Shown: positions 9,180 to 62,186 of the stretch, one piece after another | How the letters are laid out: each line of letters starts with the position of its first letter | How positions within the stretch are numbered: position 1 is the first letter of the stretch | From: Levilactobacillus wangkuiensis | GTDB lineage: Bacteria > Bacillota > Bacilli > Lactobacillales > Lactobacillaceae | Reading direction: 5' to 3' | Assembly: GCF_016861605.1 (NCBI RefSeq) | Contig: NZ_BOLM01000002.1 | Coordinates: 1-64,000, forward strand | DNA: 64,000 bases | The notes under the pieces: model-generated | Told to the model about the DNA's origin: nothing | The model's database searches: none | What the model saw: only the letters and a program-made list of their open reading frames with translations | Program-made: the position numbers and the translations under genes

Positions 9180-9364
9180 GTTCCCGGCGGCGGGTTCAAG
9201 TTGCCCTGCTGTGGGGCCGGTTCCAGACTGAGGGGCGGTCTTCCACCTCGCTTTGAAGCCACGAAAACCCCGTGTCTTCAAAGTCGTCCCATGCTCTAAA
9301 CTGAGAAGTTCACTCAGTTAAGACCATCGACACAGCTGGTCAACTTGACCCGCCTCTGGTCACT
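9180..9364 (+). repeat. family A structured repeat, copy A1
   Basis: Complete core from GTTCCCGGCGG to CTCTGGTCAC. Arm pairs specific to this copy are GGGTTCAAGTTG with CAACTTGACCC, and the third hairpin AACTGAG/CTCAGTT. Both differ from other copies yet stay complementary. It lies 50 bp upstream of, and antisense to, the small gene at 8930-9130. Confidence 0.9.
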
Positions 9365-9697
9365 CACGTTGAAACGTTACCGCAATCATGGCTAACCTCT
9401 TACAATCACCACGATAGGTTTGCTTCAACTATTGTGACAGATACTTCGAATATTTCAATACCTTTCTACTCGCCTTTAAATTATCGCGCATCTCTAATTT
9501 AGAAGCAAACAACCTGTCGCCTCCCTTATAATGGGTCGACAACCACTATAGTAAAAATGCTGACAAATTTTAACAACTAATCGGAAACACATGACACTCT
9601 TCCTACTAATTCGATTCATACCCGCGTACACGTAAAAATTGTAACCACCGCCGACTGGCTTGAGCTTACCGCCGGGAATGTAGCCGTCGACCGTATA
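9365..9697. other. intergenic between two repeats
   Basis: AT-rich, without a credible open frame. A short stretch near 9660-9680 (CTTGAGCTTACCGCCGGGAA) looks like the remnant of a family A left arm. Nothing else was recognised. Confidence 0.4.
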
Positions 9698-9917
9698 ATT
9701 TGGTGCGTCTGTGTCAGTGACCAGAGGCGAATCAAGGTGCCCTGCTGTGTCGATGGTCTTGGCTGAGGTCCTTTCTCAGCCTAGCCCATGGGGCAACCTT
9801 TGAGACCGCCCTATGGCTCAAAGTTGAGGTGGAAGCCCGCTCTTCGGCTGGAACCGACCCCACAGCCGGGCACCTTGAATTCGCCGCCGGGAACGAAAGC
9901 CCAGCGCGCACCAAATT
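9698..9917 (-). repeat. family A structured repeat, copy A2
   Basis: Minus orientation; core 9717-9894. Outer arms AATTTGGTGCG (9698-9708) and CGCACCAAATT (9907-9917) pair perfectly and are unique to this copy. Third hairpin GGCTGAG/CTCAGCC. It lies upstream of clpE, antisense to it, ending about 40 bp before the CIRCE element. Confidence 0.9.
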
Positions 9918-9959
9918 TCACCACGGTTTGGGAAAAGTAGGAGAAATCAGGAGTCGATT

Positions 9960-9986
9960 TTAGCATTCTACTACCGAGAGTGCTAG
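9960..9986 (+). promoter_or_regulatory. CIRCE element (HrcA operator)
   Basis: TTAGCATTC, nine bases, GAGTGCTAG: the CIRCE consensus TTAGCACTC-N9-GAGTGCTAA with two mismatches. It lies 60 bp upstream of the clpE -35, so it probably acts on a second upstream promoter or by looping. Confidence 0.8.
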
Positions 9987-10046
9987 AATAAAATTGTTCG
10001 CTGGAAATGCCACGATTACCGCCGATTTTGTCGTGAAACAAATTAC

Positions 10047-10074
10047 TTGCACGGCAGGTCGAACGCGGTATAAT
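10047..10074 (+). promoter_or_regulatory. clpE promoter
   Basis: -35 TTGCAC (10047-10052), 16-bp spacer, perfect -10 TATAAT (10069-10074), directly followed by a CtsR box. Confidence 0.82.
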
Positions 10075-10083
10075 GTGGTCAAT

Positions 10084-10100
10084 GGTCAAGAAAGGTCAAA
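10084..10100 (+). promoter_or_regulatory. CtsR operator
   Basis: GGTCAAG-AAA-GGTCAAA, the direct heptad repeat with 3-base spacing bound by CtsR. One base differs from the ideal. It covers the expected transcription start of clpE, a typical repressing position. Confidence 0.88.
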
Positions 10101-10165
10101 ACTTTTCTCACACAGACCTGCGTGGGTTTCCCACGAGAATTCCAGGCAAGAAAGGAGACGACAAG

Positions 10166-12400
10166 ATGCTATGTCAAAATTGCCACCGCAATGAAGCAAC
10201 GATTCACCTTTACATGAGTGTAAATGGGCAGCGGCAACAAGTTGACCTATGCCAAAATTGTTATCAACTGCTGAAGCAGCAACAAAACGATTCTGGAAAT
10301 GGAGGTGGCCGTATGGCACAAGATCCATTCGGCTTTGGTAACCTGGATGATATTTTCCGGGCAATGCAAGGCGGCAACAACGACCAAGCTGACTACCGGC
10401 AATCCGGTGCGCAGCAACCTGGTCAACCAACCCAACCTGCTGGTAACCAAGGAAACGGCAATGGCCTACTCAGTCAGTATGGCTTGAACCTGACCAAACT
10501 AGCTAAGGACGGCAAGGTTGACCCCGTTATTGGGCGTGACAAAGAGACGGCTCAAGTCATCGAAATTCTCAATCGCCGGACCAAGAACAACCCCGTTTTA
10601 ATCGGGGAAGCCGGTGTTGGGAAGACGGCCGTCATTGAAGGCCTTGCGGAACGGATTGTTGAAGGCAACGTTCCCCAAAAATTAGCCAACAAACAAATTA
10701 TTCGATTGGACGTGGTTTCCCTGGTTCAAGGAACCGGGATCCGGGGCCAATTTGAACAACGGATGCAACAATTGATGAAGGAAGTTCAGAGTAATCCGGA
10801 CATCATCCTCTTTATTGACGAAATCCATGAAATCATGGGTGCCGGCAATGCCGAGGGTGGCATGGACGCTGGTAACGTGTTGAAGCCAGCGCTTGCTCGG
10901 GGTGACTTCCAACTCATCGGGGCCACGACTTTAAATGAATACAGAGATATTGAAAAGGACCAAGCCCTCGCACGGCGGTTCCAACCCGTTACGGTTGATG
11001 AACCGAGTGCCGATGAAGCCGTCAAAATTTTACAAGGCATCCAAAAGAAGTACGAAGATTACCACCACGTTCACTACACGGACGACGCCATTGAGGCCGC
11101 TGTTCGCCTGTCTGACCGTTACATCCAAGACCGGTTCTTACCGGACAAGGCCATTGACCTGTTGGATGAAGCCGGTTCACGGAAGAACTTAACGATCAAC
11201 GTGGCTGATCCCAAGGCTATTGATGAAAAGATCAAGAGTTCCGAGGATCAGAAGCAGGCTGCTTTGAAGCAGGAAGACTACGAAAAGGCCGCCTACTACC
11301 GTGATCAAGTCACGAAGTTAGAGAAGTCCAAGGAAAATGCCAAGACCGCTGATCAAAACCAGTCGGCCACGGTTACCGTCAAGGACATGCAGGACATCGT
11401 CGAAGAGAAGACGTCCATCCCCGTGGGTGAGTTAGCAGCCAAGGAACAACATCAACTGCAAAGCCTCTCCCCTGATTTGGAAAAGCACGTCATTGGCCAA
11501 AACGAAGCCGTCGACAAGGTTGCGCGGGCTATCCGCCGGAACCGTATCGGGTTGAACGGCACGGGCCGGCCAATCGGGTCCTTCCTCTTCGTTGGTCCGA
11601 CTGGTGTTGGGAAGACGGAATTAGCTAAACAATTAGCCAACGAACTCTTCGGCTCTCAGGAGGCCATGATTCGGTTTGACATGTCTGAGTACATGGAACC
11701 GCATTCCATTTCGAAATTGATCGGGTCCCCACCTGGCTATGTCGGCTATGAAGAAGCCGGTCAGCTGACGGAACAAGTTCGTCGGCACCCGTACACCTTG
11801 ATCTTACTGGACGAAATTGAGAAGGCCCACCCCGACGTCATGAACATGTTTTTACAAATTCTTGACGACGGCCGGTTGACCGATTCTCAAGGTCGGACCG
11901 TTTCCTTCAAGGATACGTTGATTATCATGACCAGTAACGCCGGGACCGGCGATGCTGAAGCCAACGTTGGTTTCGGTGCCGCTGCCGAGGGCACGACCCA
12001 CTCCGTTCTGGGCAATTTGACCAACTACTTCAAGCCAGAATTCTTGAACCGTTTCGACGACATCATTGAATTCAACTCTCTCAGCAAGGAAAACTTGATG
12101 CACATTGTTGACTTAATGATTGGTGACGTCAACCAGATGCTTGCCGGCCAAGGCCTCCACATCCACGTTACGGAACCCGTTGAAGAACAACTCGTGGCGA
12201 AGGGCTACAACCCAGCAATGGGCGCTCGGCCATTACGGCGAGTCATTCAAGAAGAAATCGAAGACCGGATTGCGGACTTCTACCTTGATCACGCGGACGT
12301 TAAGAACCTCGTGGCCAAGATTGAAGATGGCAAGATTGTCTTAGCCGCTGACACGGATACTGCTAAACCAGCAGCCGAACCAACGACGGATAAAAAGTAA
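10166..12400 (+). CDS. clpE: ATP-dependent Clp protease ATP-binding subunit ClpE
   Basis: A 744-residue AAA+ unfoldase that feeds ClpP. The N-terminal zinc finger (CQNC, then CQNC 23 residues on) is diagnostic of ClpE. A Gly/Gln-rich linker follows, then AAA-1 ([17 protein letters not shown]), a UVR-type coiled linker ([13 protein letters not shown]) and AAA-2 ([21 protein letters not shown]). The ATG at 10166 follows AAAGGAG; the open frame runs 31 codons further upstream through the CtsR box and is not coding. Both a CIRCE element and a CtsR box precede it, implying dual heat-shock control. A terminator follows. Confidence 0.96.
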
Positions 12401-12412
12401 AGTTCATTTTTA

Positions 12413-12445
12413 ACGGCGATTCGCAACTTGCGGGTCGCCGTTTTT
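12413..12445 (+). terminator. clpE terminator
   Basis: Stem ACGGCGA/TCGCCGT with an inner CGCAA/TTGCG helix, followed by TTTTT. Confidence 0.88.
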
Positions 12446-12564
12446 GGTTGCCTAATCAATCTCTGGAAGCGTTTTGCAAAAGGACCTGCAACGCACCACC
12501 AGAATGCGGTATACTGTAAGCTATAGACTAATATTTTAATGGAAACTTCAGGAGGTGAAAGGAC

Positions 12565-13665
12565 ATGGCTTTTTTTGACTGGTTACGACGGGTGATCGAA
12601 CCGAATCAGGTACCCAAGCGGCGGCCGCGGCACGCACAGACGCGACGGCGCCCTGAGTCCGCACCGGTTCCGCAAGAAACACCCGAACCCCGTGCCACAT
12701 CCCTGCCCTTAGCCCCAACACCCGTCTCACCGACACCGCAGGCCGCACCCCAACCGGTTGCGAAGGCTGCTCAGGTAGCGGCCACCCTGGTCGTCCGATT
12801 AGTGGATGATCAAAATCAACCGCTCCAACCTGCCTTAGTTCTTACCGGCTTCCTCAACCAGCCGGTCAACTTCCGCTTTCCTAAAATTGCGGGATACGCT
12901 CTCCGTGATGTACACGGGTTCACCCAGGATTACATTTCAGCATACGGACTGACCACCCTGGTCTACGTCCGACACTGGGGACAGCCCATCATTAGCTACC
13001 TGGTCGATTACGATACCGGCCGGTTGCTGGAGCTTCCCGGGATTCTCCGCGGACGCCTGGGAACGGCCTTCTCGTTGACCCCTCCAGCCGTTGAAAACTA
13101 CCGCATCTTTCAGGCTCAGGGTCAACAACGTGGCACGTTTAACCAGCACCCCGGCCAGGTCGTTTACTACTACCGGCGGGATTCTTGGCAAATGGTTCAG
13201 CGGGTCCATCAATTTGTCTTTCTGCAGGCCGACCATCAGGTTTTTGATGGCCCCAACGGTCAGGCTTACGGGTACCAGTTCCCCACGGATTCGCTGTGGC
13301 GGCTATTCATGATCATCACCCTGACCAACGGCGACGTTTGGTACAACCTCGGCGGTGAACAGTGGCTCTCGGCCAAGGAAACCGTACGGCGGGAGCACCA
13401 GTTCATCGACCTCGGCTTGCCCGAACCCGACCGGTGGCATCCCGAACCGTTTGAACGGATTGGCACTGTCGACTATGTACCGGGCAAGGCCGTGTCCATT
13501 TACCACGAACCCTACGGCGAAACGGCCGGTCAGCTCGACCATGGTGAGGCCCTGGATATCCGCGGCCGGGTCGTGGATGATCAGCAGCTGGTCTGGTACC
13601 AGATTGGGCCGGATGCTTACATTAACGCGCGCTACGTCCGCCTCGCCCTCGTCGCCTACGCTTAG
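12565..13665 (+). CDS. MucBP/SH3-like domain protein without signal peptide
   Basis: A 366-residue protein. Residues 1-75 are an Arg/Pro/Gln-rich tail starting MAFFDWLRR. Residues 75-205 resemble a MucBP module (TLVVRLVDD through GTFNQHPGQVVYYYRRD). The remainder looks like two SH3/SLAP-type repeats (VFDGPNGQAYGYQF and VSIYHEPYGETAGQL). Such modules normally act outside the cell on mucin or wall polymers, yet there is no hydrophobic signal segment, anchor or LPxTG motif. The start is well set by AGGAGGTG. A -10 TATACT lies at 12510-12515. Function is not known; a surface protein exported by another route or a cytoplasmic homologue are both possible. Confidence 0.75.
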   Translation: MAFFDWLRRVIEPNQVPKRRPRHAQTRRRPESAPVPQETPEPRATSLPLAPTPVSPTPQAAPQPVAKAAQVAATLVVRLVDDQNQPLQPALVLTGFLNQPVNFRFPKIAGYALRDVHGFTQDYISAYGLTTLVYVRHWGQPIISYLVDYDTGRLLELPGILRGRLGTAFSLTPPAVENYRIFQAQGQQRGTFNQHPGQVVYYYRRDSWQMVQRVHQFVFLQADHQVFDGPNGQAYGYQFPTDSLWRLFMIITLTNGDVWYNLGGEQWLSAKETVRREHQFIDLGLPEPDRWHPEPFERIGTVDYVPGKAVSIYHEPYGETAGQLDHGEALDIRGRVVDDQQLVWYQIGPDAYINARYVRLALVAYA

Positions 13666-13890
13666 AACTGGGTTGTGATTAATGTTCGTTCCCGGCGGTG
13701 GGCTCAAGACGGCCTGCTGTGGGGTCGGCTCCAGCCTGTGAAGCGGGCTTCCACCTCGACTTTGAGCCTGAGGAGCGGTCTCAAAGATCGTCCCATGGAC
13801 TAAGCTGAGTGAGAAACCTCAGCTAAGACCATCGACACAGCTGGCCATCTTGGCCCACCTCTGGTCACTGACATTGATCACACCAAGTTC
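13666..13890 (+). repeat. family A structured repeat, copy A3
   Basis: Core 13688-13869. Outer arms GTGATTAATGT (13675-13685) and ACATTGATCAC (13871-13881) extend the stem, beginning directly at the stop codon of the preceding gene. Inner arm GGTGGGC pairs with GCCCACC, where other copies have GGCGGGC/GCCCGCC. Confidence 0.9.
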
Positions 13891-13965
13891 TATTGTGCTG
13901 GTTCCTGTGGTTGATATATGGCCACCACAATTACTAATCGTTGAATTATATAAAACCAAATAAAA

Positions 13966-14006
13966 AACGGTCGCCTCTTCATTTTTTTCACGAAGAGGTG
14001 ACCGTT
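13966..14006. terminator. bidirectional terminator
   Basis: A 15-bp stem, AACGGTCGCCTCTTC with GAAGAGGTGACCGTT (one wobble), flanked by A and T runs on both sides. It separates the convergent MucBP-like gene and the ATPase gene. Confidence 0.88.
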
Positions 14007-14184
14007 ATTTTTGTGTCTAACCGATTCATACGTTGCGGCGTATGCTTGAATCTTAGCTTACTTGCCGAATGTGTCTTACCACGACCCCCACGCGCTTCCA
14101 AACGTCTCGTTTACTCCTCCAAGCAATCGTCAGTTATCGGTCGCGTGAGTGTCTTGGCTTGACCCATTCAGTTACGGTGTTGCC
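14007..14184. other. intergenic, nothing recognised
   Basis: Sequence between the terminator and the end of the ATPase gene. A weak inverted repeat GATTCA/TGAATC near 14021-14050 is the only structure seen. Confidence 0.35.
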
Positions 14185-17027: not shown

Positions 17028-17117
17028 AGATAGTCTTTTAAATCAATCTAGCTAAACTTGCGAGACAAAATCGGACCGACTGGCAGAAGCAGTGACGACA
17101 CAGGTGCGCCCATGTCA

Positions 17118-17298
17118 GTGACCAGAGGCGGGCCAAGACGGCCAGCTGTGTCGATGGCCTTAGCTGAGGTTTCCCACTCAGCTTAGCCCATGGGACAACC
17201 TTTGAGACCGCTCCCCAGGCTCAAAGTTGAGGTGGAAGCCCGCTCTTGGGCTGGAACCGGCCCCACAGCAGGCCATCTTGAGCCCGCCGCCGGGAACG
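17118..17298 (-). repeat. family A structured repeat, copy A4
   Basis: Minus orientation, starting 28 bp after the pepD stop, so sense with pepD. Right and left arms here read GGGCCAAGACGGCC and GGCCATCTTGAGCCC. The third hairpin is AGCTGAG/CTCAGCT. Confidence 0.9.
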
Positions 17299-24260: not shown

Positions 24261-24547
24261 GGGCTAAACCCGTGTCAGCCGCAAGGCTGGGAAAACTGGG
24301 CCAGTCGTGGGAGTGACCAGAGGCGAGCCAAGGTGCCCGGCCGTGTCGGTGGTCTTGGCTGGGGTATTTTCCCAGCCTAGCCCACGGGGCAACCTTTGAG
24401 ACCGCTCTTTGGCTCAAAGTTGAGGTGGAAGCCCGCTTCTCAGGCTGGAACCGACCCCACAGCAGGGCGCCTTGAGCTCGACGTCGGGAACGGACGCGAC
24501 CAGGCCCAGTTTTCACCAGCCCGGAGGCGCTGACAACGACCAGTTTA
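24261..24547 (-). repeat. family A structured repeat, copy A5
   Basis: Minus orientation, core 24313-24492. The outer arm GGCTGGGAAAACTGGGCC pairs with GGCCCAGTTTTCACCAGCC further out, and GGCTAAAC with GTTTAGAGC, which reaches the prfC stop codon. It is sense with prfC. Confidence 0.9.
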
Positions 24548-26225: not shown

Positions 26226-26450
26226 TTAGTCGGCTGCGCGAAACCACAGCGCTACCTGCCGCTCCCGGCGGTGGGCTCAAGATGCCCTGCTGTGGGGAAC
26301 GGCTCCAGCCTGGGAAGCGGTCTTCCACCTCGCCTTTGAGCCCCAAGACCGGTCTCAAAGGTCGTCCCATGCTCTAGGCTGAGAAAGTCCCTCAGCCAAG
26401 ACCATCGACACAGCTGGCCATCTTGGCCCACCTCTGGTCACTCAGACTAA
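26226..26450 (+). repeat. family A structured repeat, copy A6
   Basis: Core 26261-26442, beginning GCTCCC instead of GTTCCC. GGTGGGCTCAAGATG pairs with the CATCTTGGCCCACC arm. A short outer TTAGTC/GACTAA pair flanks it. It lies between divergent prfC and the gene at 26735, its left arm nearer prfC and antisense to it. Confidence 0.88.
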
Positions 26451-27289: not shown

Positions 27290-27488
27290 GGCGATAACAG
27301 CGCCTACCGGGTGGTCAAAAATAGACCGGAACGCGGTGGGCAGGACGCCCAGAGCCAAAGAGCGGTCTCTGCGCTCGCTTTGAACCTCTGAGAATCGAGT
27401 TTCAAAGTCGCCATTTTAGTAGCGAACCGCTACTAAAATCCCACGGCTGAGTCTATTTTTGACCACCCTCTCGGCTCCTATCGTCTTA
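27287..27488 (+). repeat. family B structured repeat, copy B1
   Basis: Family B core 27309-27468. Outer arms GGTGGTCAAAAATAGAC and GTCTATTTTTGACCACC pair perfectly. First hairpin CAGAG/CTCTG around the conserved loop CCAAAGAGCGGT. Second hairpin CTTTGAA/TTTCAAAG. Third hairpin ATTTTAGTAGCG/CGCTACTAAAAT. It is directly downstream of and sense with the gene ending at 27289. Confidence 0.9.
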
Positions 27489-28780: not shown

Positions 28781-29068
28781 GGTTAAAACCGTGTCAGCCG
28801 TAGGGCTGGGAAAACTGGGCCGGTCGTGGAAGTGACCAGAGGCAGATCAAAGTGACCGGCTGTGTCGGTGGTCTTGGCTGGAGTTTTGTTCCAGCCTAGC
28901 CCACGGGGCGACTTTTGAGACCGCTTTTCGGCTCAAAATCGAGGTGGAAGCCCGCCCTTTGGCTGTAACCGACCCCATAGCCGGGCACTTTGAATCTGCC
29001 GCCGGGAACGGACGCGACCAGGCCCAGTTTTCACCAGCCTGGAGGCGCGAACAACGACAGGTTTAACC
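28781..29068 (-). repeat. family A structured repeat, copy A7
   Basis: Minus orientation, core 28832-29010, sense with tagF. This copy is informative: GGCAGATCAAAGTG pairs with CACTTTGAATCTGCC, where most copies have GGCGGGCTCAAGGTG/CACCTTGGCCCGCC. Outer pairs are GGCTGGGAAAACTGGGCC with GGCCCAGTTTTCACCAGCC, and GGTTAAA with TTTAACC. Confidence 0.92.
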
Positions 29069-33772: not shown

Positions 33773-34054
33773 AAACTAGTGTTCTATCAGTGCCTCCGGG
33801 CTGGTGAAAATGGCCTTCGTCGCGTCCGTTCCCGGCGGTGAGCTCAAGCGGCCCTGCTGTGGGGCCGGTTCCAGCCTAAGAAGCGGGCTTCCACCTCACC
33901 TTTGCGCCTGAAAACCGGTCGCAAAGGTTGTCCCATGGGCTAGGCTGGGAAAATACCCCAGCCAAGGCCACCGACACAGCTGGTCGGCTTGGCTCACCTC
34001 TGGTCACTGCCACGACTGGCCCATTTTCACCAGCCCTGCGGCTCACACTAGTTT
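33773..34054 (+). repeat. family A structured repeat, copy A8
   Basis: Core 33838-34017. Outermost arms AAACTAGTGT (33773-33782) and ACACTAGTTT (34045-34054) pair perfectly. Then GGCTGGTGAAAATGGCC pairs with the GGCCCATTTTCACCAGCC arm. Third hairpin GGCTGGG/CCCAGCC. Left arm 23 bp from the transporter start codon, antisense to that gene. Confidence 0.92.
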
Positions 34055-34272: not shown

Positions 34273-34485
34273 GGGCTAAATCCATGCCAGCCGGAGGGTC
34301 GGTGTAAATAGGCTCAGCCGTGGGAGTTGCCTTAGCGGGTTCCCCACTTAGGCAACTGCTATCTTTGAGACGCGACCTTCGGCTCAAAGTAAGTCCGGAG
34401 ACCGCCCTTCGGCTCCGGGCGGCGCCCACAGCGTCCCGGCCTATTTTCACCGACCCGGAGGCGAAAACAACGCGTAATTCACCCC
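34273..34485 (-). repeat. family B structured repeat, copy B4
   Basis: Minus orientation. Arms GGTCGGTGTAAATAGG (34297-34312) and CCTATTTTCACCGACC (34440-34455) pair over 16 bases with one mismatch. Third hairpin AGTTGCC/GGCAACT, first hairpin CCGGAG/CTCCGG. It lies downstream of and sense with the DUF402 gene. Confidence 0.9.
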
Positions 34486-35270: not shown

Positions 35271-35553
35271 TGGGTTAACCGCACCGCCTCCGGGCTGGTG
35301 AAAATTGGGCCTGGTCGCGTCCGTTCCCGACGGCGCGCTCAAGGTGCCCTGCTGTGGGGCCGGTTCCAGCCAAAGGACGGGCTTCCACCTCGACTTTGAG
35401 CCAAAAATCGGTCTCAAAGGTCGTCCCATGGGCTAGGCTGGAAAAAGACTCCAGCCAAGACCATCGACACAGCTGGGCACCTTGGCGCGCCTCTGGTCAC
35501 TTCCACGACCGTCCCAGTTTTCCCAGCCCTGCGGCTAACATTGGTTTAACCCA
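35271..35553 (+). repeat. family A structured repeat, copy A9
   Basis: Core 35323-35500. Outermost TGGGTTAA (35271-35278) pairs with TTAACCCA (35546-35553). The core arm GGCGCGCTCAAGGTG pairs with CACCTTGGCGCGCC, a compensated GC inversion against the usual GGCGGGC/GCCCGCC. It lies between divergent genes, left arm nearer the DUF402 start. Confidence 0.92.
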
Positions 35554-38129: not shown

Positions 38130-38373
38130 TAACCCTCACATCCTTTTCTCAATTTCAGAAACATTTTGCTGTTCTTGGCATTATTTTACCAGTTCGCCGG
38201 GGGGTGTGGGAAGCAGAGCGACAGATTTGTTAGTCAATCATCTTTTCGCGGCAATCACGGTTGGCCGCCACAACGATTCCTAGTCACCATCGCAGTGACC
38301 TGCTATAATTGGGACAACTTGCTGGCGGTCCCAACCGACTGACCAGTCGATCTAAAAATAAGGAGTGAGCGCT

Positions 38374-38832
38374 TTGGTAACAGCACAAGTGGTCTTTGCC
38401 ACCATCACCGGCAATAACGAAGACGTTGCGGACATCGTCACGGAAAAATTGGAAGACCTGGGATGTCAGGTCACCGAGACAGAAATTTCACAGACGGACG
38501 CCGCCGAGTTTGAAAACGTCGACATCTGTGTGGTCTGTGCCTACACCTACGACGAAGGCTCCCTTCCCGACGAAGGCATGGACTTCTACGAGGACCTCCA
38601 GTCCATCGACCTGACCGATAAAATTTACGGCGTGGCCGGTTCCGGCGATACCTTCTATGGCGAATACTACAACACCACGGTGGATCACTTTGACGCCACC
38701 TTCCAGAAGACTGGTGCCATTCGCGGTGCAGCTCCCGTTAAAATTAACTTGGCACCGGATCAGGCCGCCATCGACCAGCTCGACGCCATGGTCCAACAGC
38801 TCGTGGACACCTACCACGCTAAACACAGCTAA
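38374..38832 (+). CDS. short-chain flavodoxin
   Basis: A 152-residue flavodoxin. The FMN phosphate loop is ATITGNNEDVA near the N-terminus, and the isoalloxazine loops are YTYDEGSLPDE and GSGDTFYGEYYN. Highly acidic, as expected for an electron carrier. AAGGAG is eight bases from the TTG at 38374; the GTG at 38365 overlaps that site and is rejected. It is a single gene; repeat A10 starts within a few bases of the stop codon. Confidence 0.88.
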   Translation: MVTAQVVFATITGNNEDVADIVTEKLEDLGCQVTETEISQTDAAEFENVDICVVCAYTYDEGSLPDEGMDFYEDLQSIDLTDKIYGVAGSGDTFYGEYYNTTVDHFDATFQKTGAIRGAAPVKINLAPDQAAIDQLDAMVQQLVDTYHAKHS

Positions 38833-38837: not shown

Positions 38838-39020
38838 TCGTTCCCGGCGGCGGGCTCAAGGTGCCCTGCTGTGGGGCCGGTTCCAGCCAAAGGGCGGGCT
38901 TCCACCTCAACTTTGAGCCTGAGAATCGGTCTCAAAGGTTGTCCCATGCTCTAAGCTGAGAAAAATCACTCAGCTAAGACCATCGACACAGCTGGTCACC
39001 TTGGCCCACCTCTGGTCACT
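38838..39020 (+). repeat. family A structured repeat, copy A10
   Basis: Core begins at 38840, seven bases after the flavodoxin stop, in sense orientation. CTCAAGGTGCC pairs with the GGTCACCTTGG arm. The first hairpin has loop CCAAAGGGC, the form shared with family B. Confidence 0.9.
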
Positions 39021-39175: not shown

Positions 39176-40096
39176 TTATTTCTCTTTATTTTTTAAATGA
39201 TATTTGCGATACCTTAACAGGTTGGGGATGGCCAACGCCTTTTGTTCCTCGATGGCCCCCACGATTAACTCCTGGATGGCCGCGTTCAACACGGCCCCAA
39301 ACATCAGGATCAATCCGGTGAAGTCCAACCAGAACATTAAGAAGATGAACGTTCCAATCGTTTTATAGCTATCGATGTTGTGCACGAAGTATTTCACGTA
39401 GATGGAAAACGCCTGCGAGAGGAGCAACCAACCCACCGTGGCGACCAGGGCCCCGGGCCACACGAACCGCCATTTTAACTTAGCGTTGGGCACGAAGTAA
39501 AAGAGAATCATCAACACGACGAAGACCACGAAAAACGTAAACGGCCATTTCAACGCGTTAACGTACCCCAGAATCGCCCGTGGCAGGTGTAGCAAAGGGG
39601 TCAGCTTTTCCAACACGATTTGCCCGAAACTAAAAAAGATCATGAGGGCAAACAGGAAGGCAATCAGCACGACCATCCAGAAAAATGCTACGACCCGATT
39701 GACGAACGCATTTTGATTCTTCGCGACGCCATAGGCCCGGTTGACGGTTCGTTGGAACGCCGCAACCGCCCGGGAGGATGACCAGATGGACACGATAACC
39801 CCAATGGACAGCACGCCCCCGCTCCGATTATTCAGGAACGAGTGAATGATGGGCTCCAACATGTCAAAAATACTTTCGGGCACCATTGGCTCAATGCTAT
39901 CCAGCACCGTCGACGTTTGAATATTTAAATAAGGTAAGATACTGGCTAGCACCAGCAGGGCTGGGAATAGCGACAGCAACGTATAATAGGCCAAAACGAC
40001 GGCGGAATCGGACACGTTGGCCATCGTGTAGTGCTTCATGATGGTTCCGTAAACGTGCTTGAGTTGCGCGCCCCGTTTGCGCCACTGAGTGGTCAA
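39176..40096 (-). CDS. YihY/UPF0761 (RNase BN/BrkB-like) membrane protein
   Basis: A 306-residue membrane protein with about six helices. Family motifs seen are VLAYYTLLSLFPALLVL at the first helix, IWSSSRAVAAFQRTVNRAYG in the middle and GALVATVGWLLLSQAFSIYV later. The family was once named RNase BN in error; function is unknown. The start is the TTG at 40096, ten bases after GGAGG. The open frame continues 52 codons upstream, but that stretch is translated repeat A11, so the longer protein is an artefact. Confidence 0.85.
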   Translation of the reverse strand: MTTQWRKRGAQLKHVYGTIMKHYTMANVSDSAVVLAYYTLLSLFPALLVLASILPYLNIQTSTVLDSIEPMVPESIFDMLEPIIHSFLNNRSGGVLSIGVIVSIWSSSRAVAAFQRTVNRAYGVAKNQNAFVNRVVAFFWMVVLIAFLFALMIFFSFGQIVLEKLTPLLHLPRAILGYVNALKWPFTFFVVFVVLMILFYFVPNAKLKWRFVWPGALVATVGWLLLSQAFSIYVKYFVHNIDSYKTIGTFIFLMFWLDFTGLILMFGAVLNAAIQELIVGAIEEQKALAIPNLLRYRKYHLKNKEK

Positions 40097-40121
40097 GGTG
40101 TTCGAACCTCCTTTTTCTAGA

Positions 40122-40344
40122 AGATGGGTTGGTCGGTATCTTACGTTCCCGGCGGCGGGCTCAAGGAGTCCTGCTGTGGGGCCGGTTTCAGCCAAAGAGC
40201 GGGCTTCCACCTCAACTTTGAGCCTGGGGTGCGGTCTCAAAGGTTGTCCCATGCTCTAAGCTGAGAAAAATCACTCAGCTAAGACCATCGACACAGCTGG
40301 TCACCTTGGCCCGCCTCTGGTCACTGACACTGACCAAACCATCT
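40122..40344 (+). repeat. family A structured repeat, copy A11
   Basis: Core 40145-40325. Outer arms AGATGGGTTGGTCGGTATC (40122-40140) and GACACTGACCAAACCATCT (40326-40344) pair over 19 bases with wobbles, sequences not shared with other copies. It begins 26 bp from the YihY start codon, antisense to it, leaving no room for a normal promoter in between. Confidence 0.93.
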
Positions 40345-42610: not shown

Positions 42611-42842
42611 CTGAGCGAGAACTGGTTCTTGCACTCGCCTTACCGGGCGGGAAAAATGGACCGGAACGCTGGGGCGGCCGTCCGAAGCCAAAGAGCGGTC
42701 TTCGGACTTGCTTTGAACCTCAAAGAGCGAGTTTCAAAGACACCAGTTCTCTAAGCAACACGGCCCGTTGCTAAGAGAACTCCCACGGCTGAGTCCATTT
42801 TTCCCACCCTCACGGCTGACTGTAAAGCCAGTTCTCACTCAC
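42611..42842 (+). repeat. family B structured repeat, copy B2
   Basis: Core 42645-42810. Outer GGCGGGAAAAATGGACC pairs with the GAGTCCATTTTTCCCACC arm, and further out CTGAGCGAGAACTGG with CCAGTTCTCACTCAC. Third hairpin AGTTCTCTAAGCAAC/GTTGCTAAGAGAACT is perfect. First hairpin CCGAAG/CTTCGG. It lies between divergent wecB and the glycosyltransferase gene, left arm towards wecB. Confidence 0.92.
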
Positions 42843-46731: not shown

Positions 46732-46969
46732 GTGAAAATAGGTGGACTAAACTTACCGTTCCCGACGGCAGATTCAAGGTGCCCTGCTGTGGGGAACGGC
46801 TCCAGCCTGAGAAGCGGTCTGGAGCCTCGCCTTGAAACCTCGCTGAGTATCGCGAGTTTCCAAGGTCGTCCCCTGCTGTAGGCCGGGAAGGAACCCCGAC
46901 CAACACCAGCGACACAGCTGGTCACCTTGATCCGCCTCTGGTCACTCACGTTGGTTCAACCATTTTCAC
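46732..46969 (+). repeat. family A structured repeat, copy A12
   Basis: Core 46758-46946. Outer GTGAAAATAGGTGGA pairs with the CAACCATTTTCAC arm. It is a divergent copy: core GGCAGATTCAAGGTG with CACCTTGATCCGCC, third hairpin GGCCGGG with CCCGACC, and a longer second hairpin. Left arm near the Usp promoter, antisense to the gene. Confidence 0.88.
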
Positions 46970-49986: not shown

Positions 49987-50047
49987 GCGAATCCCTCCAA
50001 AATTGTTTGAATTGTTTTTGATTTTTGTTAAATTGTGATTAATTGCC

Positions 50048-50229
50048 GTTCCCGGCGGCGGGCTCAAACCGACCCGCTATGGGGCCCGGTTCCAGCCTAT
50101 GGAGCGGGCTTCCACCTCGACTTTGAGCCTGAGAAACGGTCTCAAAGGTCGGCCCATGGTCTAACCTGAGAAAATCACTCAGCTAAGACCATCGACACAG
50201 CTGGCCGGTTTGGCCCGCCTCTGGTCACT
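50048..50229 (+). repeat. family A structured repeat, copy A13
   Basis: Complete core. The arm reads CTCAAACCGACC and its partner GGCCGGTTTGG, so AAACCG/CGGTTT replaces the usual AAGGTG/CACCTT with pairing kept. The GCTGTG motif has become GCTATG on one side. Left arm 62 bp from the oxidoreductase start, antisense. Confidence 0.9.
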
Positions 50230-52000: not shown

Positions 52001-52221
52001 CACTGGGTTAACGGGATGTGAGCCGCAGGGAGAGTGAGAATGGGCTTAGCCGTGGGAATGTTCTTAGCGGCGCTTTTTGCCGGTTAGAACATTGATATCT
52101 TTGAGACACCTGGGTGGCTCAAAGTAAGCCCGGAGACCGCTCTTTGGCTCCGGGCGTTCGCCCACAGCGTTCCGGTCCCATTCTCACTCTCCCGGAGGCG
52201 CCGGTTCCCCTTAACCCAGTT
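52001..52221 (-). repeat. family B structured repeat, copy B5
   Basis: Minus orientation. GGGAGAGTGAGAATGGG (52028-52044) and CCCATTCTCACTCTCCC (52177-52193) are perfect 17-bp complements unique to this copy. Outermost CACTGGGTTAACGGG pairs with CCCCTTAACCCAGTTG. Third hairpin AATGTTCT/AGAACATT, first hairpin CCCGGAG/CTCCGGG. Downstream of and sense with the RpiR gene. Confidence 0.95.
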
Positions 52222-56212: not shown

Positions 56213-56241
56213 AATTCAATCAATGAAAGGGCTTACTTCCT

Positions 56242-57600: not shown

Positions 57601-57632
57601 AATTTTTCTGACAATTAATTCGAGCGTCACTT

Positions 57633-57665
57633 GGTCCGCTGCCCCCTGGGGTGGCGGACCTTTTT
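57633..57665 (+). terminator. terminator of the gluconate operon
   Basis: GGTCCGC/GCGGACC with an inner CCCC/GGGG helix, then TTTTT. The outer arm of repeat B3 starts at the next base. Confidence 0.92.
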
Positions 57666-57880
57666 GTCTGGGCTAAAGCATTCGCCTCCGGGATGGTGAA
57701 AATATACCGGAACGCGGTGGGCGCCGTCTGGAGCCAAAGTACGGTCTCCAGACTTACTTTGAGCCGCTGAGAACCGCGTCTCAAAGATAGCAGTTGCCTA
57801 AGCGGTAAAACCGCTAAGGCAACTCCCACTGCTGAGTATATTTTCACCATCCCTGCGGCTGACACGCGTTTAGCCCGGAC
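57666..57880 (+). repeat. family B structured repeat, copy B3
   Basis: Outermost GTCTGGGCTAAA (57666-57677) pairs with TTTAGCCCGGAC (57869-57880). Next, GGGATGGTGAAAATATA pairs with TATATTTTCACCATCCC. First hairpin CTGGAG/CTCCAG, second TTTGAG/CTCAAA, third AGTTGCC/GGCAACT. Sense with gntP, directly after its terminator. Confidence 0.95.
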
Positions 57881-57957
57881 AAATAGTATTGGTGTTCGGT
57901 TATTTTCTACTAGTTCAAATATGAATGTAACCCAACAAGATTTATATGACAGTTAAA

Positions 57958-58119
57958 TTAAGCCTGAGGAGCGGTCTCAAAGGTTGTCCCGTGGGCTAGG
58001 CTGAGAAAAAACCTCAGCCAAGACCACCAACACAGCTGGGCACCTTGGCGCACCTCTGGTCACTACTATAACAGGTGGATTTTCACCATCCCTGCGGCTG
58101 ACACGTGTTTAGCCCCGTA
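57958..58119 (+). repeat. family A structured repeat, truncated copy A14
   Basis: Only the right half of family A remains, from GCCTGAGGAGCGGTCTCAAA through CTCTGGTCAC (58063). It is followed by an outer arm TTTTCACCATCCCTGCGGCT that duplicates the outer right arm of B3 (57841-57860) almost exactly. The left half is absent. Confidence 0.85.
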
Positions 58120-58431
58120 CAAACGGTGTTGTGGCTGGGTAACGTGTTGCACTCACCTGAAGCCTGGCCCACTTGCTTTCAACATGACTGCAAAAAACTC
58201 AACCCTAGCCCAAAACATATCCGCCTAATCATGTTGCTCATCACAACGACTTATCCCTTAAATATTCCCATAAAAGTATAACTGCTTAAATACCCCCTCC
58301 CTGCTCGTCTAATCGCTTTCTCACCGTCGTGACATCCTTTCACATATCTCTGCTTCAACTGCACACAACGCTAAATTTAAGTGCTATAATGGTAAAATCA
58401 GTCATTTGAGAGAAGAGAGGAGTCTAAGACT
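58120..58431. other. intergenic, only a -10 seen
   Basis: Region upstream of the amino-acid permease. A TATAAT at about 58384 may be its -10; no good -35 or other structure recognised. Confidence 0.4.
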
Positions 58432-59754
58432 TTGGCAAAAGAACTACGTCGAGAAATCGGCACGTTTACTGCCCTGGCAACCGTGATGGGAACCGTGATC
58501 GGTGGTGGGGTATTCTTCAAGACCGCTAGCGTGGTGGCTGCCAACCACTCCGCTAACATGACGCTGGCTGCTTGGATTTTGGGTGGGATTTTGACCATCT
58601 GCGCGGGCCTGACGAGTGCCGAACTCGCTGCCGCAATTCCCCGCACCGGGGGCGCCATGCGTTACCTGGAGTACGCCTACGGCAAGCCCGTGGGTTTCTT
58701 AATGGGTTGGGCGCAGCTATTGGTCTATTACCCGGCAAACATCGCGGCCCTCTCGATTATTTTTGGGACGCAATGGGTCGCCCTATTTCATCTGAGTAGC
58801 GCCTGGCAGTTACCGGTCGCCATTCTGTGTGGTCTGAGCATCACTGGCTTAAACTTTTTAGGCGCTAAGGTCGGCGGGTCCGTTCAGTCGATTGCCCTAA
58901 TTTTTAAATTGATTCCTATTATCGTCATCGTCGGGATTGGCCTGTTTGCGCCGGCCAATGCCACGATTCACCTCTGGCCAATTACCACCGGTGACCACCT
59001 CAACTGGGGCAGCGCCTTCAGCTCCAGCCTGTTGGCGACGATGTTTGCCTATGACGGCTGGATCAGCATTGGGAACATCGCCGGAGAAATGAAGCATCCC
59101 GAGCGCGACCTGCCCCGGGCCATCATCATTGGCCTAGCCGGTATCACCCTAATCTATACGCTGGTCAACCTGGTGTTCTTAAAGACGTTGCCCATCGATC
59201 TGATTGCGGGTAATCAAAACGCTGCGGCCGATGCATCCATGAAACTGTTCGGCCAATTTGGCGGCAAGCTGGTCACGATTGGCATCTTGATTTCCGTCTA
59301 CGGCGCCATCAACGGCTACACGCTGACGGGGATGCGAGTACCCTTCGCCATGGCCGAAGAGGACAGCCTGCCCTTTTCTAAATACTTCCGCCAGCTGTCT
59401 CGCCGGACTTATGTGCCCTACTTTGCGGGGAGCGTGCAGTTCGTCATTGCCCTAGTGATGATGTTCATGGGAAGCTTTGATCTCTTAACGGATATGCTGG
59501 TGTTCGTGATGTGGGTCTTCAACTGCCTCATCTTCATCGCCGTCTTCAAGTTACGACGGACGGAACCTGAGCTCAACCGGCCTTACCGGGTCCCAGGTTA
59601 TCCCGTGATTCCGTTGATTGCGCTGGTAGGTGGGATCTTCATCCTGGCAACCACGCTGATCACCGAAACAGGCCTCGCCGTCACCGGGCTGCTCCTCACC
59701 CTGATTGGCCTGCCAATTTACTTCTGGCACCAACGCCATCAAACCACTAATTAA
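58432..59754 (+). CDS. APC superfamily amino-acid permease
   Basis: A 440-residue permease with 12 helices. The first unwound helix reads TVMGTVIGGGVFF, then LTSAELAAAIPRTGGAMRYLEYAYG in helix 2-3 and ALFAY-like LATMFAYDGWISIGNIAGEM in helix 6, typical of the serine/threonine-exchanger (SteT-like) LAT branch. It starts with TTG at 58432 after AGGAG. A terminator follows. The exact amino acid is unknown. Confidence 0.88.
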   Translation: MAKELRREIGTFTALATVMGTVIGGGVFFKTASVVAANHSANMTLAAWILGGILTICAGLTSAELAAAIPRTGGAMRYLEYAYGKPVGFLMGWAQLLVYYPANIAALSIIFGTQWVALFHLSSAWQLPVAILCGLSITGLNFLGAKVGGSVQSIALIFKLIPIIVIVGIGLFAPANATIHLWPITTGDHLNWGSAFSSSLLATMFAYDGWISIGNIAGEMKHPERDLPRAIIIGLAGITLIYTLVNLVFLKTLPIDLIAGNQNAAADASMKLFGQFGGKLVTIGILISVYGAINGYTLTGMRVPFAMAEEDSLPFSKYFRQLSRRTYVPYFAGSVQFVIALVMMFMGSFDLLTDMLVFVMWVFNCLIFIAVFKLRRTEPELNRPYRVPGYPVIPLIALVGGIFILATTLITETGLAVTGLLLTLIGLPIYFWHQRHQTTN

Positions 59755-59756
59755 AC

Positions 59757-59798
59757 AAAATGGCTCACGCAAGCGCTAAACTTGTGTGAGCCATTTTT
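59757..59798. terminator. bidirectional terminator
   Basis: AAAATGGCTCAC with GTGAGCCATTTTT plus an inner CAAG/CTTG, between the convergent permease and gshA. Confidence 0.9.
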
Positions 59799-59800
59799 CG

Positions 59801-61324
59801 TTAGTTTTCGTAATGTAAGGGCGCTGGTAACGCCGGTAAATCAGGGAACAGTTGTCGCAAGCGGGCGTCGGCATCGGGCACGCGGGTGTCGCGGTCCTCC
59901 AACACCTGGGTGATGCCATCGAAGGTAAACATCAGGAGGTCGGCGCCGTTCTCGTCCCGTACCTGGTAGAAGCGGATGCCGGCTTGTAAGGCGGTCATCA
60001 CAAATCGTTGCGCGTGATCAGAGAGTTGCTGAAGCTGTGGCAACAAGGCTGGCGTGTTGATACGGTCGTGATACCATTTTCGTGCCACGGCCTGCCCAAA
60101 TTTCATCAGGCTACCATTCTCCACGTGGGTCAACAACTTCGCTGCCGGCGTTAACTCGGGATGCGTCAGGACTTCCTCCAGGTCGTCGATGATGTCCCAC
60201 TGCTCAATGTGCGTCTGTAGGGACTGGGCCATCTCCCGCATTTCATGGAAGATCTGCTCCCCCTCCAGCTGATACTGCGTGGCCGTCAGGGGATTCTCCA
60301 ACGCGACCGTCTGATTCTTGGTCCGCGCGGCCGTCAGCGTTTCTGCTAGATTTTCCGGCTCCGGTTGAGTCAGCAGGTACAGCATGAAAATTTTCAGGAA
60401 GTACATGGCGTGGCGACTGACCCCGTTGGGTGTGAACGGCGTGTTGTCAAAGTCTCTGAGTTCCAGGTATTGGATGCCCCCGGTCAGGAAGTCACGCGCG
60501 TTGGCCCGTCCCTTGAGCCGCACCGGCCCGTAAAATTCGTGGGCTGAGAAATAGGTTCCCTCGTCGATACGGTCCTGAAGCTGCGTTAAATGCGCCGTCA
60601 GTGAGGCATAGGTCACCTGTTCTTGTGGAAAATTGACGAAACCGTAAGGACTGTTACGAATACTACGCACGGGTTCCTGTAGATCCGCCGGCACAGTCTC
60701 GAAGAAGCCCTTCTCCGCGATGGGACTGGCCCCGAACAGGTACGTCAACAACCACTGGTAGCGCACAAAGTTTTGGGCCACCCGGAAGTACAAGGCATTT
60801 TTAAAGGCAACCAGCGAACTAAATTCGGTGGTGTAATGACTATACAGCCGATGAATGACGGGGTCCGGCAAGCTGTAGTTGACGTGCACGCCGGTCAGAC
60901 AGCCGTGCTGCAGGCCGTACTTCTTGACCAAATACTCCCGGTATGGGCGAATCGCTGGCCGGTCAAAATGGTCCGCAATAAACTGCAGATCCGTGTCGTC
61001 TACCACTGGTGGCATGCTCAGCGGCCAGATGCGGTCGTCGCCCTCCAGTGAGCGGTACGCCACCGTTTGTAACGTATCGAGTTGGTCCAACGTTCCCCCA
61101 ATATTGGGGTTGGGGTCGGTAATGACCTCCAACTGACTTTCGGTGAAGTCCGTTTGAAAATACGGATGGAAAGTCCGGGACCCAAGTTGGCTGGGGTGTG
61201 GGCGGCGGCTCAACCGGCCATGCTGGTCGATTCGCTGCTCTTCAATCTCTAGCCCCACTAGACTGTGATAAAGCTGTTCTGATAAGTTTTCTTCGCGAAT
61301 AACTGCTAATAGGTTGTCCAGCAT
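59801..61324 (-). CDS. gshA: glutamate-cysteine ligase (GshA part only)
   Basis: A 507-residue gamma-glutamylcysteine synthetase of the type that forms the N-terminal half of bifunctional GshF. Seen are GLEIEEQRID, DFTESQLEVITDPN, LTGVHVNYSLPD and QYLELRDFDNTPF. The ATP-grasp glutathione synthetase half (about 250 residues) is absent, and the frame ends cleanly with a terminator, so it should make only gamma-glutamylcysteine. AGGGG precedes the ATG. It is a single gene. Confidence 0.88.
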   Translation of the reverse strand: MLDNLLAVIREENLSEQLYHSLVGLEIEEQRIDQHGRLSRRPHPSQLGSRTFHPYFQTDFTESQLEVITDPNPNIGGTLDQLDTLQTVAYRSLEGDDRIWPLSMPPVVDDTDLQFIADHFDRPAIRPYREYLVKKYGLQHGCLTGVHVNYSLPDPVIHRLYSHYTTEFSSLVAFKNALYFRVAQNFVRYQWLLTYLFGASPIAEKGFFETVPADLQEPVRSIRNSPYGFVNFPQEQVTYASLTAHLTQLQDRIDEGTYFSAHEFYGPVRLKGRANARDFLTGGIQYLELRDFDNTPFTPNGVSRHAMYFLKIFMLYLLTQPEPENLAETLTAARTKNQTVALENPLTATQYQLEGEQIFHEMREMAQSLQTHIEQWDIIDDLEEVLTHPELTPAAKLLTHVENGSLMKFGQAVARKWYHDRINTPALLPQLQQLSDHAQRFVMTALQAGIRFYQVRDENGADLLMFTFDGITQVLEDRDTRVPDADARLRQLFPDLPALPAPLHYEN

Positions 61325-61440
61325 GGCGGTAACATCCCCTAACCTTAAGATGACTGATTTAACCTAAAGTGTAAACAAAAAAGGGGCCCGTGTCACTGAT
61401 ATTGGCTAACTTTTTTCAAAAAAATTTAGTGAGTAACCCA

Positions 61441-61630
61441 TCCACCGGGCTGATGAAAATACGTGTTGTCCTTTCGTTCCCGGCGGTGGGCTCAAGGAGC
61501 CCTGCTGTGGGGCCGGTTCCAGCCTGTGGGGCGGGCTTCCACCTCAACTTTGAGCCTGGGGGACGGTCTCAAAGGTTGTCCCATGCTCTAAACTGAGAAA
61601 ACCACTCAGTTAAGACCATCGACACAGCTG
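61441..61630 (+). repeat. family A structured repeat, truncated copy A15
   Basis: Core from 61476; left outer arm GGGCTGATGAAAAT at 61448. The copy stops abruptly after GACACAGCTG at 61630, so the last 30-40 bases of the right arm and the outer right arm are missing. Third hairpin AACTGAG/CTCAGTT. Left arm towards the gshA start, antisense. Confidence 0.88.
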
Positions 61631-61639
61631 TGAAACGGA

Positions 61640-62000
61640 AAGCCACAATCATTCCACAATTATTCGCGTAAAGAATCGACACTAATTCAACCACGGCCGT
61701 CAGTACCTGAATCATCGCCCACCAGCCACGACGACCCTTACCAGCCGGCTCTTTTAGCCGTTGTTAGCGACCAGAGGCGATTCAAGGTGACCTGCTGTGT
61801 CGATGGCGTTAGCTGAGGTTCCTCACTCAGCTTAGGCCATAGGGCGAGCTTTGAGACCGCCCCTCAGGCTCAAACCGCGTTCCCCACAATCACTCAAGCA
61901 AAGAACCGATACTAGCCCAAGGACGTCAGTACCCACACATCAACCTCCACCAGCCACGGCACCCCTTGCCAGCCGGCTCTTTCAGCCGTTGTTAGCGACC
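61640..62000. repeat. imperfect tandem duplication
   Basis: The stretch of about 130 bp leading into A16 (61640-61774) is repeated with divergence before A17 (about 61870-62002). Shared segments include GTCAGTACC, CACCAGCCACG, CCAGCCGGCTCTTT, then AGCCGTTGTTAGCGACCAGA, which begins the core of each repeat. It suggests duplication of a repeat with its flank. Confidence 0.75.
61767..61877 (-). repeat. family A structured repeat, truncated copy A16
   Basis: Minus orientation. Right arm, third hairpin (AGCTGAG/CTCAGCT) and second hairpin are present. The copy ends at GGCTCAAA where the second tandem unit begins, so the left arm is lost. Confidence 0.82.
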
Positions 62001-62186
62001 AGAGGCGGTTTCGCGGACGCAGCTGTGTCGGTGGTGTTAGACCGAGTGCTTTTCTCGGCCTTACACCACGGGACGACCTGGGAAACTCGCGCCCCTTGGC
62101 GAGGTTTCTAGGCGAGACGGAGGACCGCATCTCAGGCCGCAGTCGTTCCCCACAGCAGCGGTAGCGAAGACCGCCGCCGGGAGCGG
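61995..62186 (-). repeat. family A structured repeat, divergent copy A17
   Basis: Minus orientation, sense with deoA. The most diverged copy, yet paired: GGCGGTTTCGCGGAC with the GTAGCGAAGACCGCC arm, second hairpin rebuilt as GGGAAACTCGC and GCGAGGTTTCT, third hairpin GACCGAG/CTCGGCC. GCTGTG/CACAGC is kept. Confidence 0.82.

Follow-up and report, generated by a model that had tools for sequence, protein, structure and literature searches.

A branched foldback repeat of Levilactobacillus wangkuiensis lies with one polarity at gene margins and keeps its fold across five genera of Lactobacillaceae

Introduction

The first 64,000 nucleotides of contig NZ_BOLM01000002.1 of Levilactobacillus wangkuiensis (assembly GCF_016861605.1), hereafter the window, carry between their genes many copies of a long repeat that can be folded into a branched rod. 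What kind of element this is, and how its copies came to lie where they do, are the questions that this locus raises. A sequence-only reading of the window had described the repeat as a family, A, of 17 structured, non-coding copies. Here, we describe the copies of this repeat, its fold, its placement at genes and its turnover between species, and we weigh the explanations that can be given for it.

Results

Each of the 17 family A copies previously listed was located at or within its reported position. Fourteen are complete cores of 180-192 nt, which run from CGTTCCC or CGCTCCC to CCTCTGGTC(A/G)CT, and the others are half copies at about 57958 and 61767 and a copy without its right arm, 61475-61653 (Table 1). 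The arm 20-mer GTTCCCGGCGGCGGGCTCAA, with at most 3 mismatches, occurs 13 times in the window, compared with 0.00 times in 100 dinucleotide shuffles. The complete A cores of the window have a G+C content of 58-66%, against 51.7% for the window itself, and the content of A cores above 100 bits is 53-69%. Five weaker matches in the window, designated family B (27310, 34289, 42636, 52021 and 57683), have an architecture in common with family A. The two families are one superfamily, which corrects the original listing of family A.

Table 1 Copies of the repeat in the window.
Feature	Coordinates	Strand	Remark
Family A core, complete	9179..9364	+	Best-paired outer arms ~9159-9379
Family A core, complete	9716..9895	-	
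Family A core, complete	13687..13869	+	5' outer arm starts at stop codon of upstream ORF 12565-13665
Family A core, complete	17117..17298	-	
Family A core, complete, long-arm type	24312..24492	-	
Family A core, complete	26260..26442	+	
Family B copy	27310..27467	+	Divergent sequence, same architecture
Family A core, complete, long-arm type	28831..29010	-	
Family A core, complete, long-arm type	33827..34008	+	
Family B copy	34289..34463	-	
Family A core, complete, long-arm type	35322..35501	+	
Family A core, complete	38839..39020	+	Stop codon of ORF 38365-38832 lies 6 nt before
Family A core, complete	40144..40325	+	
Family B copy	42636..42817	+	
Family A core, complete	46757..46946	+	Variant, second hairpin extended
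Family A core, complete	50047..50229	+	
Family B copy	52021..52200	-	At the same site in G309, the copy (95% identical) has the opposite orientation
Family B copy	57683..57860	+	G309 and G310 have 5' half of a family A copy there
Family A copy, 3' half	57958..58064	+	Start approximate
Family A copy without right arm	61475..61653	+	
Family A copy, 3' half	61766..61870	-	Ends approximate
Family A core, complete	61994..62185	-	Variant, second hairpin extended

The further copies that had been anticipated elsewhere in the same genome do exist. The genome, of 3.14 Mb, has at least 150 of them, and the sampled density of 0.21 copies per kb corresponds to roughly 650 per genome; by arithmetic from these sampled counts (650 copies of about 250 nt), the repeat may occupy about 5% of the genome. 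It is present in only part of the Lactobacillaceae, namely in 60 of 301 genomes and 9 of 40 genera, its own included, a restriction that had also been foreseen. The R2 search was positive in 30 of 395 genomes, and 8 of these 30 lie outside the family, each with 1-3 weak matches that may be unrelated foldbacks. The copy set analysed below has 105 copies from 111 matches: five omitted matches were the same sites on the other strand, and the sixth was L108:18522-18699 + (27.9 bits). Carriage on plasmids or phages was rejected, one copy having given 0 blastn matches in 72,556 plasmid and 50,697 phage records, a search that detects close sequence only and from which records of its own or a near genome may be missing.

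The fold of the repeat comprises a long interrupted stem, a clamp and three hairpins, two of which have a recurring AGCC/GGTCT motif. In a structure-blind MAFFT alignment of 38 copies, two-sided changes were found in 29 of the 55 pairs, compared with 9.8 in shuffled data, and 0 of 500 shuffles scored as high; the within-genome covariation score, also from structure-blind MAFFT alignment, was 0.198 against 0.092 shuffled and at most 0.050 for slides. The two core arms and the three hairpins that had been proposed are borne out by these two-sided changes. The proposed GCTGTG/CACAGC clamp is near-invariant in the 38 copies, and changes on both of its sides are seen across genera (helix 5, alignment fitted to the model). 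The predicted helix formed by GTGGGG and its partner had zero two-sided changes in the 38-copy alignment, and folding of the reverse strand replaces it with another pairing. Longer outer arms, described at the outset for many copies, are real in many copies and not in all, since 26 of 68 A-type copies exceed the 95th percentile of the null; the mean flank pairing score of these 68 is 22.0, compared with 15.1 for flanks taken from different copies.

The fold is conserved where the sequence is not, between five genera of one family. In 29 loci of 29 other genomes from five genera (g1, g4, g20, g24 and g38), ten of them from its own genus, the mean identity is 56%, two-sided changes are found in 48 of the 55 pairs, and the covariation score is 0.565 against 0.163 shuffled in an alignment fitted to the model. 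Alignment A4, which was so fitted, leans towards the model structure, while A3 was not fitted. Across genera, both sides of pairs are altered in every helix with the shape retained, and internal mismatches and loop motifs are recurrent.

The better folding strand is probably not the one first described but its reverse complement. The ratio of G-U to A-C cells in the 68 A copies is 139:38 on the reverse strand and 38:139 on the forward strand, and in 21 B copies it is 29:11 and 12:32, respectively; an RNase P control gave 54:1 on the true strand and 11:51 on the wrong one. In the A copies, six columns supply 97 of the 139 G-U cells, and the remainder is split 42:38. On alignment A3 with the first structure the ratio was 16:16, and the model's structure gave a forward split of 35:63, weaker than that of RNase P. 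A choice of strand that depends on transcription was rejected, as the ratio is 13:16 for copies with same-strand neighbours and 22:21 for those with opposite-strand neighbours (Fisher p 0.64, one column left out).

The copies have a positional polarity, a new observation that the sequence-only reading had missed. In its own genome, 94 of 100 copies turn their CGTTCCC end towards the nearer gene, with median distances of 66 and 378 nt on the two sides (p 2e-21; 0.50 for random placement), and in other genomes 35 of 40 do so. These counts cover 100 of the 105 own copies, five having no called gene on one side, and 40 of 42 copies elsewhere. Genes were called simply as the longest ORFs; when neighbours had to be at least 450 nt long the count is 91 of 98, and a limit of 600 nt lowers it to 76 of 97. 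Polarity is alike at gene starts and gene stops. The near-side gene is on the same strand in 50 copies and on the opposite strand in 50, so that there is no orientation preference of the kind by which a cis-regulatory RNA would be recognised. The exceptions are 6 of the 100 copies. Among them is window copy 40144, which was counted as an exception and as same-strand because ORF 39176-40252, overlapping its core, was skipped; the G303 alignment ends at 40099, and this copy therefore probably obeys the rule.

That no copy interrupts a gene, as had been stated, holds in the larger set: with naive gene calls, from which ORFs shorter than 600 nt had been removed beforehand if they covered more than 40 nt of a core, 0 of 105 copies lie wholly inside a called gene. 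In six of the 105, 21-109 nt of the copy lie over the 5' end of an ORF whose start codon is uncertain. In 26 single stop-side copies, a terminator-like hairpin is found between the stop codon and the core in 6 and beyond the element in 16. The 3' flanks gave 468 blast hits and the 5' flanks 58, partner copies in the same region being mixed in. The extra length of single-copy regions over G303 is mostly about that of the element, and a long 3' extension is therefore an unlikely cause of the polarity.

Comparison with relatives reveals turnover. Ten of 11 compared intergenic regions are shorter in G303, by 220-697 nt; G303 has four weak R1 matches in 60 kb, so an empty region there is one without a strong match. 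Alignment with G310 revealed chimaeric copies, tandem copies and deletions. A clean insertion with an empty site and a target duplication was not found in about 170 kb aligned with G310, and we thus infer mobility from turnover rather than from insertions seen. Copy 52021, inverted in place, is 95% identical to its G309 counterpart, compared with 83% for the closest among 20 further B copies of its own genome. Copies are more alike within species than between species: mean identity is 83% among 12 window copies and 81% among 8 copies of G316, compared with 67% between the two sets, and it is also 67% at the one shared site measured. In 8 of 11 comparisons with G310, a near relative, the orthologue resembles the copy more closely than the other 11 window copies do. 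By inspection, G316 also has copies in several of the intergenic regions.

Searches gave no name, and none of the Y1 transposases, integron integrases and reverse transcriptases looked for could be made its partner enzyme. The sole Rfam match in the window at the gathering threshold is a tRNA, and seven weak matches in six loci of relatives (E up to 5) all lie away from the element, as the earlier suggestion of novelty had required. No name for the repeat was found in open-access papers at the level of titles and abstract openings. The Y1 transposase PF01797 has 0 matches in this genome (a draft, 99.99% complete), and it is matched in 23 of 35 genomes of the genus. For the integron integrase TIGR02249 there were 11 matches, of which the best reached 90 bits against a cut-off of 265 and none exceeded it. 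The genome has two reverse transcriptases, and either was rejected as a partner because no copy of the repeat lies in their loci of about 3.5 kb. One of them seems to belong to a prophage diversity-generating element. A promoter of its own for the folded strand was rejected, since in convergent regions the best sigma-70-like scores before the favoured strand equal those of shuffles.

Discussion

RUP, ERIC and Correia elements are often classed as MITEs, and our repeat resembles MITEs as a non-autonomous, highly base-paired foldback dispersed in intergenic DNA. MITEs are described in PMC3049150 as rich in AT, bounded by terminal inverted repeats and accompanied by target duplications, whereas the A cores are richer in G+C than the window. 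The comparison with G310, which gave no clean empty site, showed no target duplication. The BOX element of Streptococcus pneumoniae consists of boxA, tandem boxB units in variable number, and boxC; no tandem unit is evident in the alignments of our core. It is likewise a composite structured intergenic repeat of a low-GC Gram-positive, one that may influence the genes transcribed with it and that moves slowly at present (PMC3049150). REPs are stem-loops of 20-40 bp, most of them tagged GTAG or CGTC (PMC3733652). The repeat shares with REPs and REPINs the high-copy extragenic palindromes, often in facing pairs, and the species-specific versions, but it differs in length, with a core of 180-192 nt and three hairpins. 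A REPIN/RAYT system was rejected on that length and on the lack of a Y1 transposase in the genome. The first likening to BOX, ERIC and REP in kind is borne out. The best reading is that it is REP-, BOX- or MITE-like in lifestyle and, by the tests run, not a REP.

We give a probability of roughly 0.5 to the explanation that the repeat is a foldback element that is neither coding nor autonomous. Inside each genome it would multiply and be homogenised, and it would settle in the untranslated margin of a gene, tight against the coding sequence, with the same end nearly always inward. What a trans-acting factor, or selection, recognises would be the folded form of a single strand, probably the reverse complement of that first described, and the spread would proceed by a process that treats the edges of coding sequences asymmetrically. 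Many copies would be co-transcribed and, as part of a 3' or 5' untranslated region, would fold into a rod of 180-300 nt; transcripts may be affected in the ways that PMC3049150 describes for BIME, ERIC and BOX. It is also possible, and we put it forward tentatively, that the repeat represents a shape-recognised class of mobile elements, in which a host or element-borne enzyme would read the branched rod of one strand and place it with fixed polarity at coding edges.

Selection by the host is a somewhat unlikely alternative, in which the repeat acts in untranslated regions as a structured cap, shielding or insulating transcripts at the edge of coding sequence, and is kept for its function while spreading slowly, with the E strand used after stops and the reverse strand before starts. 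It agrees with the proximity of copies to coding sequence at both gene ends, with the absence of a terminator-like hairpin before the core in 20 of the 26 single stop-side copies, with the regions occupied in G316 too, and with changes being less frequent at paired than at unpaired positions (9.6% and 17.7%). However, 10 of the 11 regions compared are much shorter in G303, and the same-strand and opposite-strand classes are equal in size, although opposite strands would be transcribed, and equal in wobble counts. Pairing could also be maintained with no selection for function if template switching during replication copied one arm from the other, which would in addition invert cores and create arms that are unrelated but paired. 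Inversion in place is seen, the outer arms are paired yet unrelated between copies, and the 3' arm of the B copy at 57683 complements the 5' arm that it has in common with the A copy of G310 and G309. Orthologues, moreover, have 155 double changes, compared with an expected total of 32.5 if the sides changed independently; 100 of the 155 replace one Watson-Crick pair by another, and G-U is about equal to A-C outside the six columns. Such correction would erase mismatches, yet mismatches and loop motifs recur across genera, and on the reverse strand a few columns have 7-23 G-U cells while A-C never exceeds 3 per column; we therefore regard this self-correction as improbable.

Integron attC sites are known by their fold more than by their sequence, and unpaired bases matter in them. 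A comparable single-stranded-DNA recombination site, recognised by its fold and used by a host tyrosine recombinase or another enzyme, would explain why the fold is kept with recurring mismatches as the sequence drifts, and why one strand is favoured. We consider it very unlikely, because the repeat has a three-hairpin branch and sits at both gene ends and no integron integrase exceeded the curated cut-off, on which ground an integron attC site proper was rejected. The RNA-like strand preference and the two reverse transcriptases would suit a structured RNA mobilised by reverse transcription, in the manner of a SINE; this has very little probability, given that neither reverse transcriptase locus holds a copy, that one looks like a prophage diversity-generating element, and that no promoter signal precedes the favoured strand in convergent regions. 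Equally disfavoured is an ordinary cis-regulatory RNA or independent structured RNA gene, for which the strong covariation would speak, as the repeat has hundreds of copies, turnover between species, no promoter signal and no orientation preference to the near gene.

Both the polarity rule and the folding of one strand are well-defined, testable features that bear on the placement of repeats, which is an open question for REP, BOX and ERIC. The Lactobacillaceae are heavily used in food and as probiotics. Many copies probably lie in transcribed gene margins, and the repeat may therefore affect expression data, repeat-PCR typing and genome engineering in this family.

Copies in the window and their fold

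All 17 family A copies listed in the sequence-only reading are present in the window at the positions it gave. Fourteen have complete cores of 180-192 nt; of the other three, one is missing its right arm and two are half copies. Allowing up to three mismatches, 13 matches to the left-arm 20-mer are found in the window and none in 100 shuffles. A covariance model, R1, was trained on an alignment, A3, of 14 window copies and 24 copies from the rest of the genome of L. wangkuiensis. In the window, R1 finds the family A copies again, together with five weaker matches, named family B. These five copies adopt the plan of family A, with an outer arm, a clamp and then three hairpins; families A and B are a single superfamily. 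The family B outer arm GCCTCCGGG..GGTGAAAA pairs with TTTTCACC..CCCTGCGGC. A 72-nt stretch around CCGGCTCTTT, which has terminator-stem-like pairing within outer arms, occurs twice (61711-61782 and 61939-62010, 88% identity), adjoining the last two copies.

Family B copies in the window.
Position	Family	Found with
27310	B	R1
34289	B	R1
42636	B	R1
52021	B	R1
57683	B	R1

Alignment A3 was made blind to structure. In it, pairing holds in 97.8% of cells, and two-sided changes are found in 29 of 55 pairs, compared with 9.8 in shuffles; when the partner was slid by 1 to 3 columns, only 3-7 pairs had them. The clamp is nearly invariant in A3, and one predicted helix has no two-sided change. In a cross-genus alignment, A4 (42 matches in 29 loci from as many genomes and five genera, 56% identical on average), two-sided changes occur in 48 of 55 pairs (517 cells vs 146 shuffled) and each of ten helices has at least two such pairs, a result biased towards this structure by the fitting of A4 to the model. 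Between orthologues there are 155 double changes, 100 of them Watson-Crick to Watson-Crick, while 32.5 of any kind are expected under independent sides. Alignment rows read by eye show an AGCC..GGTCT motif with one unpaired base common to two hairpins, and an A.A mismatch retained in the third.

RNA selected for folding is expected to have G-U in excess of A-C. As a control, RNase P RNA from the genus was put through the same count: its G-U:A-C ratio is 54:1 for the true strand and 11:51 for the opposite one. On the strand described in the sequence-only reading, the ratio is 38:139 for 68 A copies and 12:32 for 21 B copies; on the reverse strand it is 139:38 and 29:11, respectively. Of the 139 reverse-strand G-U cells of the A copies, 97 sit in six columns, and the ratio over the remaining columns is 42:38. 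For A3 and its first structure the ratio is 16:16; under the model's own structure, the forward ratios are 35:63 (A copies) and 34:58 (across genera). The consensus energy is lower on the reverse strand in all three repeat sets examined. The reverse strand is favoured as the folding strand, with a signal below that of RNase P; this is what decay of many copies, or folding as single-stranded DNA, would be expected to produce.

Polarity towards genes

The CGTTCCC end is the gene-proximal end in 94 of 100 own-genome copies (median 66 vs 378 nt, p 2e-21); as a consequence, two copies that share a region are often in facing orientation. One of the six exceptions is probably a gene-calling error. 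Among the 54 copies with no second copy in their intergenic region, 50 show this polarity, which is independent of the direction of the near gene (47/50 running with the element, 47/50 against). When copies are placed at random within their regions, the fraction is 0.50, with a maximum of 0.64 over 200 trials. With only long genes as neighbours the polarity is weaker yet still present (76/97), and in loci of other genomes it is found in 35 of 40 copies (median 78 vs 363 nt). Among 26 single stop-side copies, a terminator-like hairpin is absent between the stop codon and the core in 20 and present beyond the element in 16; the copies with this arrangement probably lie inside the transcript.

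Copy number and distribution

In the own genome, all 150 scored candidates match R1 (best E 2.6e-55); since there are 1,534 candidates in total, 150 is a floor of the copy number. Twenty 20-kb stretches at fixed positions hold 83 copies (0 to 10 per stretch), a density of 0.21 per kb, which scales to about 650 copies in the whole genome. Across the family, where up to eight matches were scored in each genome, R1 has matches in 60 of 301 genomes (own included) and in 9 of 40 genera. Of the 395 genomes searched in the order, 30 are positive for a second model, R2, made from the cross-genus alignment: 22 in the same family and eight outside it, each of these with one to three weak matches. An exact 20-letter pattern was found in at least 106 stretches; among the 80 matches listed, 52 are from Levilactobacillus, 2 from uncultured Lactobacillus, and 26, which look like chance, are spread across unrelated phyla. 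Tandem copies that repeat about every 240 nt in a single orientation were seen at L100:14036-14704 and L097:436-867, two of the loci examined.

Turnover between species

A 2.5-kb stretch of the window has 99% identity to two related genomes, G310 and G309; the source of the window is a Levilactobacillus, a near relative of both. Compared with another relative, G303, 10 of 11 intergenic regions with copies are shorter in G303, by 220-697 nt, and the remaining one is longer and contains other repeat pieces. In 60 kb of each, G303 has four R1 matches, all weak, and a further relative, G316, has fifteen. The 12 window copies compared share 83% mean identity and 8 copies of G316 share 81%, against 67% between the two sets and 67% at the single shared site measured: each species has made its own copy set uniform.

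Alignment blocks with G310 mostly have 91-96% identity, and in 8 of 11 cases the G310 orthologue is nearer to a window copy than the 11 other window copies are. The copy differences examined against G310 are deletions, tandem copies and A/B chimaeras, with no clean insertions among them. The copy at 52021 has 95% identity to the G309 copy at the same place, in opposite orientation, compared with 83% at best to 20 other own B copies. About 52 kb of own contig C2 (about 92600-145240) has no R1 match; most of it (96499-146006) has 97.4% identity to G310, while most repeat-rich blocks have 91-96%. About 290 nt of G310 (contig C33, about 96814-97117), also lacking an R1 match, is missing from the own genome (C2, 96489-96499).

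Comparison with known repeats

The repeat matches no Rfam family in searches of the window and of loci of relatives. REP/REPIN elements are ruled out by the size of the core and by their partner, the RAYT (Y1) transposase, which is lacking in the own genome. No integron integrase above the cut-off was found there either. The base composition differs from that of a typical MITE. The own genome has a 349-aa reverse transcriptase (contig C22, L299:178-3536) whose neighbours are a tail-fibre-like protein and a short reading frame rich in repeats; judging from translations read by eye, this locus resembles a prophage diversity-generating retroelement. Another reverse transcriptase (about 320-340 aa; contig C11, L300:1243-2208) stands alone and is retron- or defence-like in appearance.

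In lifestyle the repeat is a non-autonomous interspersed repeat: multicopy, intergenic, homogenised and modular. No placement rule like its polarity was found in the portions of the open-access literature searched. We take the repeat to be a new variant among structured interspersed repeats, with an unusually large architecture and a placement rule.
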